Shown here in pieces: positions 263 through 12,090 of a stretch of DNA of 53,690 nucleotides (its first letter is position 1; each line of letters begins with the position of its first letter). The position numbers and the translations under genes were made by a program. The notes under the pieces are model-generated. The model had not been told where the DNA came from. It ran no database searches and worked only from the letters and a program-made list of their open reading frames with translations. Source of the stretch: Enterococcus sp. ZJ1622 (GTDB taxonomy: Bacteria; Bacillota; Bacilli; Lactobacillales; Enterococcaceae); the NCBI RefSeq assembly GCF_011038845.1, contig NZ_JAAKDW010000016.1, forward strand, positions 1 through 53,690, written 5' to 3'.

Positions 263-457
263 ACCTAGGAACACTTGTTCTAAAATTTTCAAATTTGCTT
301 TCATATGTTCACCACCATATTTTTCAAGTGAATGAGATAATTTCTTCCTCAAGCTTATCAGCATCTACGTAGATTTTAATTTCGCCACCTCTGCTATCTC
401 CCAAAATGGTTTCAATTTATAGAATTTCCGTACTTCACGACTCATGGAACGAACCAT
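262..457 (-). pseudogene. Decayed small gene interrupted by frameshifts next to the IS
   Basis: An ATG at 457 follows a good ribosome-binding site (AGGTGGG) and overlaps the end of the upstream 159-aa gene by 16 bases. The frame gives MVRSMSREVRKFYKLKPFW and soon stops. A second frame continues with GGEIKIYVDADKLEEE, and a third with SLEKYGGEHMKANLKILEQVF, running up to the IS end. Read together, these look like one protein of about 65 residues with two frameshifts, truncated by the IS. I do not recognise the family. The alternative is a real 30-codon ORF followed by chance coding. Confidence 0.35.
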
Positions 458-921
458 ACTTTCCCACCTTCTAAAACTTTGAATGTACTTTTTCGTTCCT
501 CTCTTAATGCTTCATTGACTTCTTCTTGACTCCAAGGAACAATCAATCGAACAGAATAGTCAACAATTAAATCAACAAATTCATAACGAAATCTGTTAAT
601 AGACACTACTTCATATGCTATCCCTTCCTTAAAAATGATAATTTCTCCTGTTTTGATTATTCGCTTATCATCTTTTGATTGGGTATAACGATCAGTTAAA
701 ACAGCTTCTTTTTTGTAATTACGATAATTACTTGGTTCTCCAACATTTTGAACTAAAACTTTTACCGTTAAACTTATAGACTTACTACCCCAAAGTTTCT
801 TAACTTCAAGAATGCGAATAACAATATACTTAGCACCCATATATTCAATGGATTCACCAATACTTACTTTTTCATTGAATCCCTCTTTATAAAGTTCCAT
901 AATCGCTAATAAACGATCCAT
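442..921 (-). CDS. Hypothetical protein, 159 aa, downstream of the Hfq-like gene
   Basis: I do not recognise this protein. The start at 921 (MDRLLAIMELYKEGFNEK) is chosen because AAAAAGGAG lies 8 bases upstream; the longer frame to 960 has no such site. The product looks soluble, rich in beta-strand-forming stretches (YIVIRILEV, SLTVKVLVQ, EIIIFKEGIAYEVVSI), with no signal peptide or membrane segment. It lies about 54 bases after the Hfq-like gene on the same strand, so the two probably share a transcript, and its end overlaps the start of a decayed third gene. Neighbouring RepE makes a plasmid-maintenance or accessory role plausible, but nothing in the sequence names one. Confidence 0.6.
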   Translation of the reverse strand: MDRLLAIMELYKEGFNEKVSIGESIEYMGAKYIVIRILEVKKLWGSKSISLTVKVLVQNVGEPSNYRNYKKEAVLTDRYTQSKDDKRIIKTGEIIIFKEGIAYEVVSINRFRYEFVDLIVDYSVRLIVPWSQEEVNEALREERKSTFKVLEGGKVWFVP

Positions 922-975
922 TTTTCCCACTCCTTTTTTACACAAAATCAAGAATTTCAATGCAAAAAAACATAC

Positions 976-1281
976 TTACTCAGAATCAAGATCTTCACAA
1001 CGGACATATTTCAATGCATGTTTAAAAAATGTCATATAATTCCCTGTTCGTTGATTACTTTTGTCTATTTGCTTTATCATGATATCGTACGTAGAAATAA
1101 AAGCTAAAATACCTTCTATTCGCTTGTTATCCATAGTCACAATTATTACTTTTTTATTTAAGAAAAAGTTTAATCCTGAAGGAGTTCGCTTCAGTCGTCG
1201 CTCATCCGTTTGCGTGTTTAATGGACCTTTGCTTTTCATTTTTAGTCGTTGCTCCTTGTTCGTTAACTTTTTATTTGTCAT
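976..1281 (-). CDS. Hfq/LSm-like small RNA-binding protein (candidate), 101 aa
   Basis: Residues 38-93 look like an Sm fold of the bacterial Hfq type. FFLN (39-42) leads into an Sm1-like stretch VIIVTMDNKRIEGILAF (45-61), followed by YDIMIK. The Sm2-like block FFKHALKYV (85-93) matches the Hfq signature (Y/F)KHA(I/L). Known Hfq proteins are about 70-100 aa hexamers that chaperone sRNAs. Here a basic tail of about 37 residues (rich in K and R) precedes the fold, and an insertion (IDKSNQRTGNYM) sits between Sm1 and Sm2. The start follows AAAGG with 10 bases of spacing. The gene lies downstream of an Inc18-type rep gene whose relatives are controlled by antisense RNA, so an RNA-chaperone role is attractive but unproven. 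The assignment is by eye. Confidence 0.6.
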   Translation of the reverse strand: MTNKKLTNKEQRLKMKSKGPLNTQTDERRLKRTPSGLNFFLNKKVIIVTMDNKRIEGILAFISTYDIMIKQIDKSNQRTGNYMTFFKHALKYVRCEDLDSE

Positions 1282-1826
1282 TTAGTCAATTCCTTTCTTT
1301 CCATCACGTTCCCGCTTGTAACTTCCTAGCCTTTTTTCGTTTGCTAGTTTGTCTTTTTTACTTGTGTTAACAGAAAAACAAAATGTCTGGCTTCGCAAGG
1401 TTTCTAGCGTTCGCAACCTCAAACTCGTAGAAAGAAAGAATCGCTCCCTTGAAAACGAGCGGACGATTGCTCGTCATCTTTTGTTTTCGTGCTAGCTGAG
1501 TCTTCGCAACTCTCCTTCCTAGTGTGTGCCTCACCCATCCAAACGCACCGCTTCTTCTAGCCGTACTATTTTAGGCGTTTTATCCTTCCTAAGCCCCGAA
1601 TAGGCACGCTGATCAGCTTAGAAAGTTCTGTTTGTATTCAATTGTCAAGGATCTGGAAAAATTATCAAAACCAGTTTACGTGTATTGCTTCAGTTCAACT
1701 CTAGTTCAAGAGATCCCTTCCACCCACAAATAATTACTATCTGCTTCGTGTCCGTGTGCTGCTTTCAATAGCTTTTCCTTTGCTAGTTTCACTAAACTAA
1801 CAAACGAAAAAAGGCTAGTTTTCGGG
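1282..1826. other. 545-bp non-coding stretch with inverted-repeat borders, possible control or origin-linked region
   Basis: I see no convincing gene here on either strand. It holds a 26-bp imperfect inverted repeat at its two ends (1326-1351 and 1793-1818), a hairpin ACGAGC...GCTCGT at 1455-1474, a palindrome GCTGATCAGC at 1608-1617, and several short TTCGCAA copies (near 1392, 1424 and 1503). Base composition is richer in G+C in the middle than in the flanking genes. Its position downstream of rep and the 96-aa gene suggests regulatory RNA, a partition or transfer site, or remnants. None of these is demonstrated. Confidence 0.5.
1326..1818. repeat. 26-bp inverted repeat pair flanking a non-coding segment
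   Basis: The left arm 1326-1343 reads CTAGCCTTTTTTCGTTTG. The right arm 1801-1818 is its exact reverse complement over 18 bases. Extending inward to 1351 and 1793 gives about 24 matches in 26. The arms are about 440 bp apart. Possible meanings are ends of a small non-autonomous element, paired terminators, or a plasmid structural site. Confidence 0.7.
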
Positions 1827-2117
1827 TCAATGAGTTTCTTTTATTCTTGCGTAATGCTCTCGTAAAATCATCAAGGGTTGTTGCGGACAACCACGATAAG
1901 CCACAATCTTTCCATTCAGAAAAATCGACTTAATTTGTGTGAAAAATAATTCTGCATCTTCATTAATTCCTAGCTCTCTTGTAACAATTACTTGCTTCTT
2001 TCCTGAATTATCCACAATAATCCGCTGAAGCTTCCGTTGAGAGACCCTCCATCGCTGGCGATTGAATAAAGTCACTTCACAACAAATTCTTTCTAAATAT
2101 AAAGGCGTTAATTCCAT
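1827..2117 (-). CDS. Small basic protein encoded just after repE, possibly PrgN-like
   Basis: This 96-aa protein begins MELTPLYLERICCEVTLFN. The ATG at 2117 is preceded by AAGGAGGGGGGG, so the longer frame to 2138 is rejected because its first codons overlap the ribosome-binding site. The protein is soluble and basic (QRWRVSQRKLQRIIVDN) with no membrane segment. It follows the replication gene by 57 bases on the same strand. Small proteins annotated as replication-control protein PrgN occur next to Inc18-type rep genes on enterococcal plasmids. I suspect this is one, but I recognise it by position rather than by a diagnostic motif. Confidence 0.5.
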   Translation of the reverse strand: MELTPLYLERICCEVTLFNRQRWRVSQRKLQRIIVDNSGKKQVIVTRELGINEDAELFFTQIKSIFLNGKIVAYRGCPQQPLMILREHYARIKETH

Positions 2118-2174
2118 CAAGCCCCCCCTCCTTATCATAGATATACTGTAAAAGGCAATTGGCGCATTTTACTT
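2118..2174 (-). other. Possible replication origin of the Inc18-type replicon
   Basis: In the Inc18/pAMbeta1 family the origin used by RepE lies immediately downstream of the rep stop codon. The equivalent position here is this 57-bp gap. It contains the ribosome-binding site of the next gene and the short AT-rich stretch TACAGTATATCTATGATA. I cannot see a conserved origin sequence with certainty, so this call rests on family position only. Confidence 0.3.
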
Positions 2175-3656
2175 TTAACCTGTATCAGCTTCAAATAAGT
2201 TCAATTGTTTGCTTCTACGATACGTTGCTAAAAAAGGTACTATCGTCGCTTCTAGTTCTTCATTTGTTAACAAGAACAATTGCTTCAAACGAGAAAGATA
2301 AACCTGTTGTTTCTCACGTGTACGTTGCAAACACTGCTTCACAAATGATCGTACAGACATCAATAGAATTCCTCCTCCTTTACCACGCTTACTTCGATAA
2401 AATACCTTATTTTCTTTTTTTAAGTCTTTCAAGAGTCGATCAAGGCTACGAGTAGGGATTCCAATTTTCTCCTGTAGTTCTTTTCTTGTACTCTCTATGT
2501 ATCCTTGTCCTTGAGCTTCTACTTGATTTAAGTAGTTCATGAGATCCGTTTTCCATTCTTGTTGGTGATTATATTTCCGTTGATCTCTTGACTTTTTGAA
2601 TTTCCACCATCCACGACGTTGAATGAATAACTCTTTCTCTTGGATATCTGGAGCAATCCATTCCTGGCACAATTCCAAGATAAAATCTCGTCGAGCTGCT
2701 CGATAATCACCGGAATAAGCACTCTTTATAATCGTTTCAACTTCTTTTTCAGCTAATGGCTCTTTCAAGCGTTCGTTAAATTCAAACATGTTGTACTCGC
2801 AAGTTTCTTGCCCATAACCAGAAGAAAAATAGGCAAGAGAAAGGGTGAAAATCACATTGTTTCTTCCTAAGCGACCTTCTCCTCCGATAATGTCGGCTTT
2901 TCGTAGTAACAAATCAAACCATGGTTCATCCACTTGGCGATATACTTTCTTCTCAGGAAAAACAATTAATTTCGCGTTTCTTTCTGCTTCACATCTGTGG
3001 TTAGAGGCTATTTTCATCGACCAATTGATCCACTCCGAAAATGAATACTGATTCTCTGATTCGTAAAATACAATATTTCTTTTATTCGGAAATCGAGCAA
3101 TACCAAAATGATTACACCCAATATCTACACCTACTAACTGTTTTGCCAGCTGTGATCGAATAGTCATAGAAATTCGCTTGGCTACTTCGATCACTTTAAA
3201 ATTGCTTTTGCGTGTGACATAAGCAGGTATACTTAATACAAAATAGACCTGATATCCAAAATCTGATTCTAAAATTAACGTTGGCATATAGCCTAGTTGA
3301 TCGATACACGCAAGAATGATTTCTCCTTGGTGATTTTCTTTTGAATCGATATCAACGACAAACGTATTGATTTGGCGTAAATTTTTTTCAAAATGTCCTT
3401 TAACAACTAAACGTTTCTCATCTGTGTATTCTCCATATCGATAGACATTTGGTGTCCAATGTGTAATTGTATCTGCTTGTTCTTCAATGGCTTCTATAGA
3501 AGTAATCACGACTCCTCTTGAAACAGATAAGGCTTCTTTAGAATAATAAATAAAAATCGAGCCTTTCTTTTCTTCTTCAACAAAGCCTACCGGCTTTAGT
3601 CGACTATTTTTAAACTTGTAAGTACGTAATCCATTCTTCAAAAAAAGATTAAGCAT
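2175..3656 (-). CDS. repE: Inc18-family replication initiator protein RepE/RepS/RepR
   Basis: This 493-aa protein initiates theta replication of Inc18 plasmids (pAMbeta1, pIP501 and pSM19035 relatives, about 497 aa), opening the origin and priming a PolI-dependent start. The family pattern is clear along its length: YKFKNSRLKP near the N-terminus, THWTPNVYRYGEY, NLRQINTFVVDID (archaeo-eukaryotic primase-like acidic motif), CNHFGIARFPN, the primase C-terminal region VDEPWFDLLL...GRNNVIFTLSLAYFSSGY and ETCEYNMFEFN. A winged-helix-like C-terminus ends in LNLFEADTG. The length suggests an intact protein. It is divergent from the textbook members, so a separate rep subtype is possible. The ribosome-binding site AAAGGAGAG lies just before ATG. 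A leader attenuator lies upstream. It adjoins chromosomal genes, which is unusual for a plasmid initiator. Confidence 0.92.
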   Translation of the reverse strand: MLNLFLKNGLRTYKFKNSRLKPVGFVEEEKKGSIFIYYSKEALSVSRGVVITSIEAIEEQADTITHWTPNVYRYGEYTDEKRLVVKGHFEKNLRQINTFVVDIDSKENHQGEIILACIDQLGYMPTLILESDFGYQVYFVLSIPAYVTRKSNFKVIEVAKRISMTIRSQLAKQLVGVDIGCNHFGIARFPNKRNIVFYESENQYSFSEWINWSMKIASNHRCEAERNAKLIVFPEKKVYRQVDEPWFDLLLRKADIIGGEGRLGRNNVIFTLSLAYFSSGYGQETCEYNMFEFNERLKEPLAEKEVETIIKSAYSGDYRAARRDFILELCQEWIAPDIQEKELFIQRRGWWKFKKSRDQRKYNHQQEWKTDLMNYLNQVEAQGQGYIESTRKELQEKIGIPTRSLDRLLKDLKKENKVFYRSKRGKGGGILLMSVRSFVKQCLQRTREKQQVYLSRLKQLFLLTNEELEATIVPFLATYRRSKQLNLFEADTG

Positions 3657-3689
3657 TTTTTCTCTCCTTTCTGTTTTGAAAATTTAGCA

Positions 3690-3732
3690 AACAAAAAAAC
3701 TCTGTATAAAGTTGCTTACACAGAGTTTTTAA
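3690..3732 (-). promoter_or_regulatory. Transcriptional attenuator hairpin in the rep leader
   Basis: Arms AAAAACTCTGT (3695-3705) and ACAGAGTTTTT (3720-3730) form a perfect 11-bp stem, which extends inward with TAA/TTA pairs. On the minus strand it is followed by seven T, some 35 bases before the rep start codon. Inc18 replicons (repR, repE) limit Rep synthesis by antisense-RNA-induced termination at just such a leader terminator. The antisense RNA itself is not identified here. Confidence 0.65.
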
Positions 3733-3768
3733 TCATTGTTATTTAATTTTTTCGAGAGAACTACATCC

Positions 3769-3784
3769 ATTAGAAAATTCTAAT
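3769..3784. promoter_or_regulatory. Small dyad in the rep upstream region, possible operator
   Basis: ATTAGAA and TTCTAAT form a 7-bp dyad separated by two bases, about 115 bases upstream of the rep start. Inc18 relatives use a CopR/CopF repressor at the rep promoter. No cop gene is visible here, so an operator role is a guess. Confidence 0.3.
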
Positions 3785-3874
3785 TTTAAAATTGACGCTC
3801 GGGCAAAAACTAGACACTTACTTTATTTTTTTATTCAACTGTTATCTGTAAGTCCATATATTCCTTTGTTCAGC

Positions 3875-4519
3875 TTAAGGCTGATTGTTATTTGCAGATT
3901 CAGTTTCCGTGTTTTGAGGCAAGCTGCTGGCTGTTTCACCCGACAACTCCGATTCGAGTTTCTTGATATTGGCTAAAGGCAGACGGTTCAGTTCTGGGAT
4001 CAATTCATCCGAAAGATTTTTCACCGTTCCTTTTCCGGCGACGATCCGGTTTGCTTCTTTTCCTTTATCAAAGAAAACAAACGTTACCTGGTCTTTGGCA
4101 ATCTGATATTTCTTTTCTAACCGAGAAACATCTGATACGATCGGATAATAATAGATCGGACGATTCAACTCACTCATTTTCTTCGGATCATCGAAAATCG
4201 AAAGTACTTCTTGATACGTTTCCCCTTTTGGCACACTGAACATCACGGAGATCGCTTTGCTTTCGGTAATCGTCTGATCTGCTTTGCTGTAATCGAACGG
4301 GCGGAGCCGATCGGAAGTGATCGTAGAATACACGAGACTCTCGACTTGTTCTTCTTTGATTTTTTCTGGCAGGAAAAACATCGCAGCTGCTAAGATCCCT
4401 GATAAAAAAAGAAAGAAGAATACCCGCCTGAAATATTTTTTTGGATCCGCATCAAACGCCGACAAAAACCGGTCATACGCTCCTTGAATTTTGAATTTGA
4501 ATTCTTCCCAGATAGCCAA
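3875..4519 (-). CDS. Membrane-anchored protein of unknown function
   Basis: This 214-aa product (from TTG 4519) has a short cytoplasmic N-terminus (FKIQGAYDRFLSAFDADPKKYFRR), one membrane segment (VFFFLFLSGILAAAMFFL), and an extracytoplasmic domain of about 150 residues (SVMFSVPKGETYQEVLSIFDDPKKM, QVTFVFFDKGKEANRIV). It ends in a low-complexity E/S/N/Q tail. The TTG start is preferred because AAAGGAAAGAGG lies directly upstream and an extended -10 promoter sits at 4551-4556, inside the longer ATG frame (to 4600). That outer frame would place the promoter within coding sequence. It is transcribed divergently from rqcH. I do not recognise the family. The outer domain could adopt a thioredoxin-like or ligand-binding fold, but no CxxC is present. 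Confidence 0.7.
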   Translation of the reverse strand: MAIWEEFKFKIQGAYDRFLSAFDADPKKYFRRVFFFLFLSGILAAAMFFLPEKIKEEQVESLVYSTITSDRLRPFDYSKADQTITESKAISVMFSVPKGETYQEVLSIFDDPKKMSELNRPIYYYPIVSDVSRLEKKYQIAKDQVTFVFFDKGKEANRIVAGKGTVKNLSDELIPELNRLPLANIKKLESELSGETASSLPQNTETESANNNQP

Positions 4520-4550
4520 CAGCCTCTTTCCTTTCTCTCTTATTTTCTCT

Positions 4551-4580
4551 ATTATACCAAAAAACACACGCACGACGAAA
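4551..4580 (-). promoter_or_regulatory. Extended -10 promoter for the membrane-anchored protein
   Basis: On the minus strand TGGTATAAT gives a TGn-extended -10 at 4551-4559, with a weak -35 (TTTCGT at 4575-4580). It lies about 30 bases upstream of the TTG start. Confidence 0.6.
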
Positions 4581-4664
4581 AAAACTGTCATTTTATTCAT
4601 TTTGATCCATTTTCTTTTCCATAAGGGTATTATAGGGTGGATACATGGACTAGATTGGCGGAGA

Positions 4665-4694
4665 TTGGTCTTTCTGCTGTTTTTTCGTTATAAT
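4665..4694 (+). promoter_or_regulatory. Promoter of rqcH
   Basis: TTGGTC (4665-4670), an 18-base spacer and TATAAT (4689-4694) precede the rqcH start by about 35 bases. The ribosome-binding site GAGG lies between. Confidence 0.65.
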
Positions 4695-4728
4695 GAATAT
4701 AATTATGAAAAGAAATGAGGAATGAATC

Positions 4729-9044: not shown

Positions 9045-12090
<3,046 letters not shown>

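Follow-up and report, generated by a model that had tools for sequence, protein, structure and literature searches.

What is a small, basic protein with an Hfq-type motif doing beside a plasmid-like replication gene? This question is raised by a 53,690-nucleotide stretch of DNA from Enterococcus sp. ZJ1622 (contig NZ_JAAKDW010000016.1; hereafter the window), which encodes, close to one end, a protein of 101 amino acids (aa) containing the sequence FFKHALKYV. A preliminary description had taken this open reading frame (ORF) for an Hfq-like Sm protein next to an Inc18-type replicon, acting as a mobile-element RNA chaperone that might tune plasmid copy number. Our main finding is a unit composed of a PrgR homolog and a structured RNA beside the ORF; the Hfq identity of the ORF itself is unproved.

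A PrgR homolog followed by a conserved structured RNA

The ORF closes a cassette of ~2.8 kb which, along the minus strand, is made up of an attenuator-like leader, an Inc18-type rep gene, a PrgR homolog, a noncoding element of ~495 nucleotides (nt), and the ORF (Table 1). Two further loci—a paralogous one in the same genome and one in E. gallinarum—carry the cassette, and in an alignment of the three, conservation begins ~163 bp before rep (at AAGTGTCTAG) and ceases where the ORF ends; the flanks on either side are unrelated. Identity among these loci was 92.6-93.9% in the core of the noncoding element, 88.3-92.3% over the whole element, 81.5-85.8% for prgR, and 71.8-80.8% for the ORF, within segment limits set by us.

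The noncoding element also matched unannotated DNA in 14 Enterococcus plasmid records at up to 76% identity (over 297 nt, E=1e-47, for E. faecium plasmids). Ten loci were aligned, and structure was analyzed on eight of them: the window, its paralog, E. gallinarum, E. faecium, a further genome (G009), and three near-identical E. faecalis plasmids. For these eight rows, RNAalifold predicted 77 base pairs, 20 of them with changes on both sides. Pairing was kept in 96.9% of cells, as compared to 42-56% when the partners were slid, a control that leans toward structure because the structure was derived from the same alignment. Cells changed on both sides numbered 61 against a shuffled mean of 25.8, and the covariation score was 0.353 against 0.202, with none of 500 shuffles doing as well in either measure. 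The comparisons show the ~495-nt element to be an RNA with a conserved predicted structure. In an Rfam scan of positions 900-4700 (E up to 10), no match overlapped 1325-1820, and the best of the scan, PyrG_leader in the rep leader, stayed at 35.9 bits under its gathering score of 65. Neither did the element match any phage, its 18-base core pattern occurred in no viral contig, and no relative of PrgR was present in viral contigs.

Table 1 Features of the cassette and its downstream neighbor in the window.
Feature	Position	Strand	Evidence or remark
172-aa protein, phrog_12394, function unknown	442..960	-	E=4.3e-47; next gene downstream of the ORF, beyond the conserved cassette
Complete 101-aa ORF	976..1281	-	Basic protein with FFKHALKYV; third-slot accessory gene, last of the cassette
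496-nt conserved structured noncoding RNA element	1325..1820	-	20-pair closing stem (long inverted repeat); no conserved frame
PrgR homolog, 96 aa	1827..2117	-	40-42% identity to PrgR from pCF10 and from an E. faecium plasmid
Inc18-type replication protein (PriCT_1), 493 aa	2175..3656	-	PriCT_1 E=1.9e-18; plasmid Rep matches
Cassette leader upstream of rep	3657..3819	-	Conservation in three loci begins abruptly at AAGTGTCTAG
Attenuator-like intrinsic terminator in rep leader	3695..3730	-	16-pair stem and T run; sequence kept in 3/3 loci

The protein-coding genes upstream of the RNA point to plasmids. The PrgR homolog matched 255 plasmid records, all from Enterococcus and several, among the matches listed, annotated as PrgR; in a comparison of nine proteins it was 40% identical to PrgR of pCF10 (E=5e-22). 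Rep matched 1445 plasmid records, 822 of them from Enterococcus, with a best identity of 67.9%. The replicon neighbor claimed for the ORF, a RepE/RepR/RepS-type initiator, was found in place, and we presume that the label 'Inc18' fits it. Both this identity to plasmid Reps and the attenuator-like terminator in the leader recall Inc18 replicons—here read from sequence alone—whereas the joining of Rep to a PrgR-RNA unit sets the cassette apart from them. At all three cassette loci rep directly precedes prgR, and prgX, prgQ, prgY, and prgZ are not upstream. A third Inc18-type rep in the same genome (G000:C21:2633-4096) is 67% identical; the RNA model found no copy of the element there.

The unit on pheromone plasmids and in enterococcal genomes

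Sequence comparison establishes that the PrgR and RNA parts are homologous to the prgQ-prgA interval of pheromone plasmids. On pCF10, the RNA element spans 9142-9562 and contains a 73-aa ORF (9176-9397) which, by gene order, we take to be prgS, the record giving no name for it. Counted inside the element, open codons in this frame number 84 in the three E. faecalis plasmid rows, 37 in the window, 37 in the paralog, 15 in E. gallinarum, 26 in E. faecium, and 16 in G009. As in prgR-prgS-prgT of pCF10, the PrgR homolog is followed by the same structured RNA, a small protein gene, and surface-protein genes. The cassette differs from pCF10 in three respects: an Inc18-type rep stands directly before prgR with no prgX or prgQ between, the sites occupy large contigs of chromosomal appearance, and the third gene lacks similarity to PrgT (blastp with the ORF, nothing at E up to 1). 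In our reading, the ORF is an interchangeable gene, third in a regulatory cassette that derives from plasmids and now resides in enterococcal chromosomal contigs.

The unit is sparsely distributed. A PrgR profile matched in 5 of 105 genomes of the family, and an RNA model (R1) recovered seven loci in 6 of 295 related genomes, each located after a PrgR-like gene. Since four of the seven are training rows and a fifth (G071) duplicates the E. faecium row, only those in G059 and G095 are new; both were weak (E 0.0035 and 0.007, respectively). The PrgR-like ORF of G059 is 36% identical to pCF10 PrgR (BLAST, E=5e-6) and that of G095 was recognized by eye; the other five R1 loci are PrgR-profile matches. 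The segments concerned (L094:869-2523 in G059, L095:1501-2050 in G095) look like PrgR-RNA units that have diverged to the limit of what can be detected. In addition, G033 has a PrgR-like ORF (E 0.005) together with an R1 match below threshold (15.4 bits).

What follows the RNA varies. The third slot is held by the 101-aa ORF at three loci, by a PrgT-like helix-turn-helix (HTH) protein in E. faecalis and G059 (the latter 43% identical to PrgT), by a 58-aa protein in E. faecium, by a 73-aa protein in G009, and by an IS3-type transposase on pBEE99. Further downstream, surface-protein or sortase genes were found by annotation or by eye at nine of the ten loci read, a set that does not take in G059 and G095. 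They comprise sortase and pilin genes, genes for LysM and LPXTG or pilin proteins, a sortase-like protein, prgA or prgB, and, at one locus, an LPXTG-type protein after a nuclease-like one. At the paralogous locus (L016:10881-11966), a 361-aa protein with a C-terminal part that resembles a TIR domain by eye is encoded between sortase genes.

These surroundings bear on the suggestion that plasmid copy number is being controlled, for which we found no evidence: pheromone plasmids have the RNA and PrgR in their prgQ-prgA interval, and surface-protein genes follow at two of the three cassette sites. A related possibility is that the cassette is a replication module, in which the RNA would belong to an Inc18-like origin or to its antisense control and the ORF product would help replication. 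Conservation of Rep, its attenuator-like leader, and a short stretch after rep along with the RNA would fit such a module, as would the replication gene upstream at several other sites, less than 0.9 kb from prgR on the E. faecium plasmid. Yet the upstream replication genes are unrelated in kind—both pCF10 and the E. faecium plasmid have a 'replication initiator protein A' in place of an Inc18-type Rep—and on pCF10 prgR is 4.7 kb away from the replication gene, with traC, traB, and prgX in between. Given also that the downstream genes encode surface proteins, we regard a replication module as improbable.

A possible read-through device upstream of surface-protein genes

An old question in enterococcal conjugation is by what means the prgR-prgS region of pCF10 can activate distant downstream genes, and cis-acting, long-range control by this region is known from older work. 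A conserved structured RNA at the place of prgS, tied to PrgR both on plasmids and in genomes, supplies a concrete hypothesis for such activation. By analogy with known antiterminators, we propose, with a probability of about one in two, that the cassette is a cis-acting PrgR-RNA read-through device and the 101-aa protein its interchangeable accessory nucleic-acid-binding factor. The nascent RNA, together with PrgR, would modify the transcribing RNA polymerase in cis, and the modified polymerase would read through terminators into long downstream operons for surface proteins, pili or conjugation. The PrgR-RNA unit might then be likened to a processive-antitermination device, with a layout comparable to conAn of pLS20. 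The 101-aa protein may join the PrgR-RNA complex as its accessory factor, occupying the slot that belongs to the HTH-like PrgT on E. faecalis plasmids.

Alternatively, instead of acting on RNA polymerase, the RNA might affect translation or work in trans, one example being a ribosome-interacting regulator of surface-protein mRNA. At the loci read, the element is located upstream of its likely targets and on their strand, which suits a role in cis, and QL is a separate segment of pCF10 between prgQ and prgR (PMC8265641). We consider action in trans or on translation rather unlikely.

For the read-through device, the closest comparison is conAn, where the RNA antiterminates and ConAn1 adds processivity (PMC8955417). 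ConAn1 was assigned to the first gene of the pLS20 operon by gene order and from PMC11730352. The gap after this gene also has a long closing inverted repeat. Each system places a small protein gene, and after it a stretch with such a repeat, at the start of a long operon—a likeness of layout read from the DNA. Both operons, moreover, have a constitutive promoter early on; that of pCF10 sits at the prgT 5' end (PMC8265641 and PMC8955417). A further parallel is that adding a prgR deletion (prgRdelta271) to a pCF10 derivative lacking prgU prevents pheromone-dependent induction (PMC8265641). As for canT of Tn916, EAR, and put, the likeness lies in a proposed large cis-acting antiterminator RNA, and the difference in that they are described in PMC11658703 without a dedicated protein. 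Homology to conAn2 had been suspected by eye from a shared GCTACAAAC near the 3' end and was rejected, as 59 to 760 of 1000 shuffles did as well for the eight rows and covariance models missed conAn2. The enterococcal RNA has, in its 3' part, a motif order AGAGTT...GCTACAAAC...CGAT that pLS20 shares (L089:3083-3465); by shuffles it is not significant.

Several observations speak against the proposed device. PrgR had no sequence similarity to ConAn1 in the nine-protein comparison, nor did the RNA element to conAn2 in the shuffle test and with the covariance models. The Tn916-type element on pCF10, which we expect to carry canT, gave no RNA-model match below E=0.01 (best 18.2 bits, E=0.011). With neither conAn nor canT could sequence homology be detected, and the comparison is therefore one of analogy and not of membership. 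Within the RNA, two measures of covariation were less clear: pairs with changes on both sides (20 vs 16.1 shuffled; 10 of 500 shuffles as good) and further pair types (48 vs 46.8; 196 of 500). Only two relatives of the 101-aa protein were accepted, and its link to the RNA is therefore positional. The window itself is the tenth locus, where the 172-aa protein is followed by an IS3-type remnant and the downstream part is cut at the contig end, and on the E. faecium plasmid the RNA is separated from the surface genes by two small, oppositely oriented ORFs. On the genetic side, PMC8265641 ascribes the effect of the prgR deletion to lost induction of transcription from PQ, upstream of the RNA, which does not favor action downstream of prgR. 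The same paper speaks of PrgR and PrgS as proteins.

More tentatively, and short of an even chance, the RNA family—which has no Rfam match—and PrgR may form an enterococcal processive-antitermination complex that was carried by plasmid replicons into chromosomal pilus and adhesin loci, gaining there a third, possibly Sm/Hfq-like, RNA-binding subunit. The PrgR-RNA unit would also connect the regulation of pili and adhesins with that of conjugative plasmids. Among the papers listed by our literature search, none dealt with a prgS RNA or with antitermination at prgR; the 2021 conAn work may already treat pheromone plasmids, and the novelty of the PrgR-RNA finding is not proved.

The 101-aa protein and the Sm/Hfq question

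The ORF is a real gene. It is complete and has a basic N-terminal tail (~35 residues, by eye) and FFKHALKYV at residues 85-93, as previously described; the coding strand is the minus strand, the plus strand from 976 containing stops in frame. Two relatives were accepted, the same-genome paralog (72-74% identical) and the E. gallinarum copy (genome G019, 65-66%). Both keep the reading frame and the FFKHALKYV block, indels within the coding part are whole codons, and F86, K87, H88, and A89 are invariant in all three proteins, which argues for a coding sequence rather than a chance frame; the expected conservation of the KHA block among homologs was accordingly observed. Searches of plasmids, phages, and viral contigs returned no relative, and in genome contigs the single protein found none, the three-row alignment one (E. 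gallinarum NBRC 100675, NZ_BCQE01000018.1). In searches of genomes at E up to 0.1, 12 of 196 and 27 of 395 genomes had a match, with only the ORF's own genome and G019 below 1e-30; the remaining matches (E 2e-4 to 0.1, many with internal stops) were set aside unread as chance. A match of the ORF to phrog_1865 (E=0.0026) was likewise dropped, this family matching 0 of 21 genomes and none of 14 controls.

Is its product an Sm protein? The ORF had no Pfam or NCBIfam match over the cut-off and none to Hfq; its sole Pfam match, below threshold, was ribosomal L34e (E=0.11). With a profile built from 30 Hfq proteins of Bacilli and judged against 1000 shuffles each, the window ORF scored 1.4 bits (62 shuffles as good), its paralog 3.3 (12 shuffles), and the E. 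gallinarum relative 7.9 (none). In hhalign, the comparison with the Hfq profile was equaled by 12 of 200 column shuffles. Against 24736 Pfam models, the E. gallinarum relative matched Gemin6 Sm-like (E=0.028) and Hfq (E=0.029; 14.4 bits, below the cut-off of 27) ahead of VirE2 in third place (0.081), and the paralog's only match was the C-terminal SH3 domain of RimP (E=0.075). A sequence search of the PDB at E up to 10 returned LSm1 (E=1.1) as the only match of the window ORF; with the three-row profile, 40S ribosomal protein S30 (0.91) ranked above LSm1 (1.1).

Structure prediction, the check proposed together with the Sm identity, returned no Sm barrel in either of two AlphaFold2 runs, at low to middling confidence (both single-chain, from two-row alignments), an outcome that the preliminary description had named as refuting that identity. 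The whole window protein gave a mean pLDDT of 57.3 and a pTM of 0.36. The second run used the 66-residue domain of the E. gallinarum relative, placed first for its better Hfq score, and gave 71.6 and 0.47. Both models have a core of strand, long helix, helix, and strand, and Foldseek with the E. gallinarum domain model found nothing in the PDB at E<6 and no credible match.

A diverged ring protein of the Hfq/LSm kind, binding U-rich stretches either in the neighboring RNA or in those of the host, would account for the invariant KHA, for the sub-threshold but thematically consistent matches of the relatives (Gemin6 Sm-like, Hfq, RimP SH3), for LSm1 as the sole PDB match of the ORF, and for an E. 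gallinarum score that no shuffle reached. Against it, every score is under its cut-off, the window ORF and hhalign scores are matched by shuffles, L34e is the only Pfam match of the ORF, S30 precedes LSm1 with the three-row profile, and the predicted fold is strand-helix-helix-strand in both runs. In other words, the ORF resembles Hfq and LSm in its (F/Y)KHA block and in sub-threshold profile similarity, and differs from them in lacking a predicted Sm barrel and a Pfam match over the cut-off; the Sm1 Asp/Asn positions are, by eye, not kept either. We judge a ring protein of this kind doubtful, and an Sm/Hfq-like fold of the ORF product equally so. Of the mobile-element RNA chaperone, the mobile-element origin and the RNA context stand, with the structured RNA directly upstream; the Sm/Hfq fold and identity are not established. 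If the third protein were an Sm protein after all, it would supply an Hfq-like factor to a genome in which Hfq was not found: the best score of Pfam Hfq in the host genome was 11.7 bits against the cut-off of 27, placing it among the 8 without Hfq in a sample of 81 genomes from the class, 73 of which have it.

Outside the cassette and near the contig end, the C-terminal remnant of an IS3-type transposase (rve domains) occupies positions 55-219 on the plus strand.
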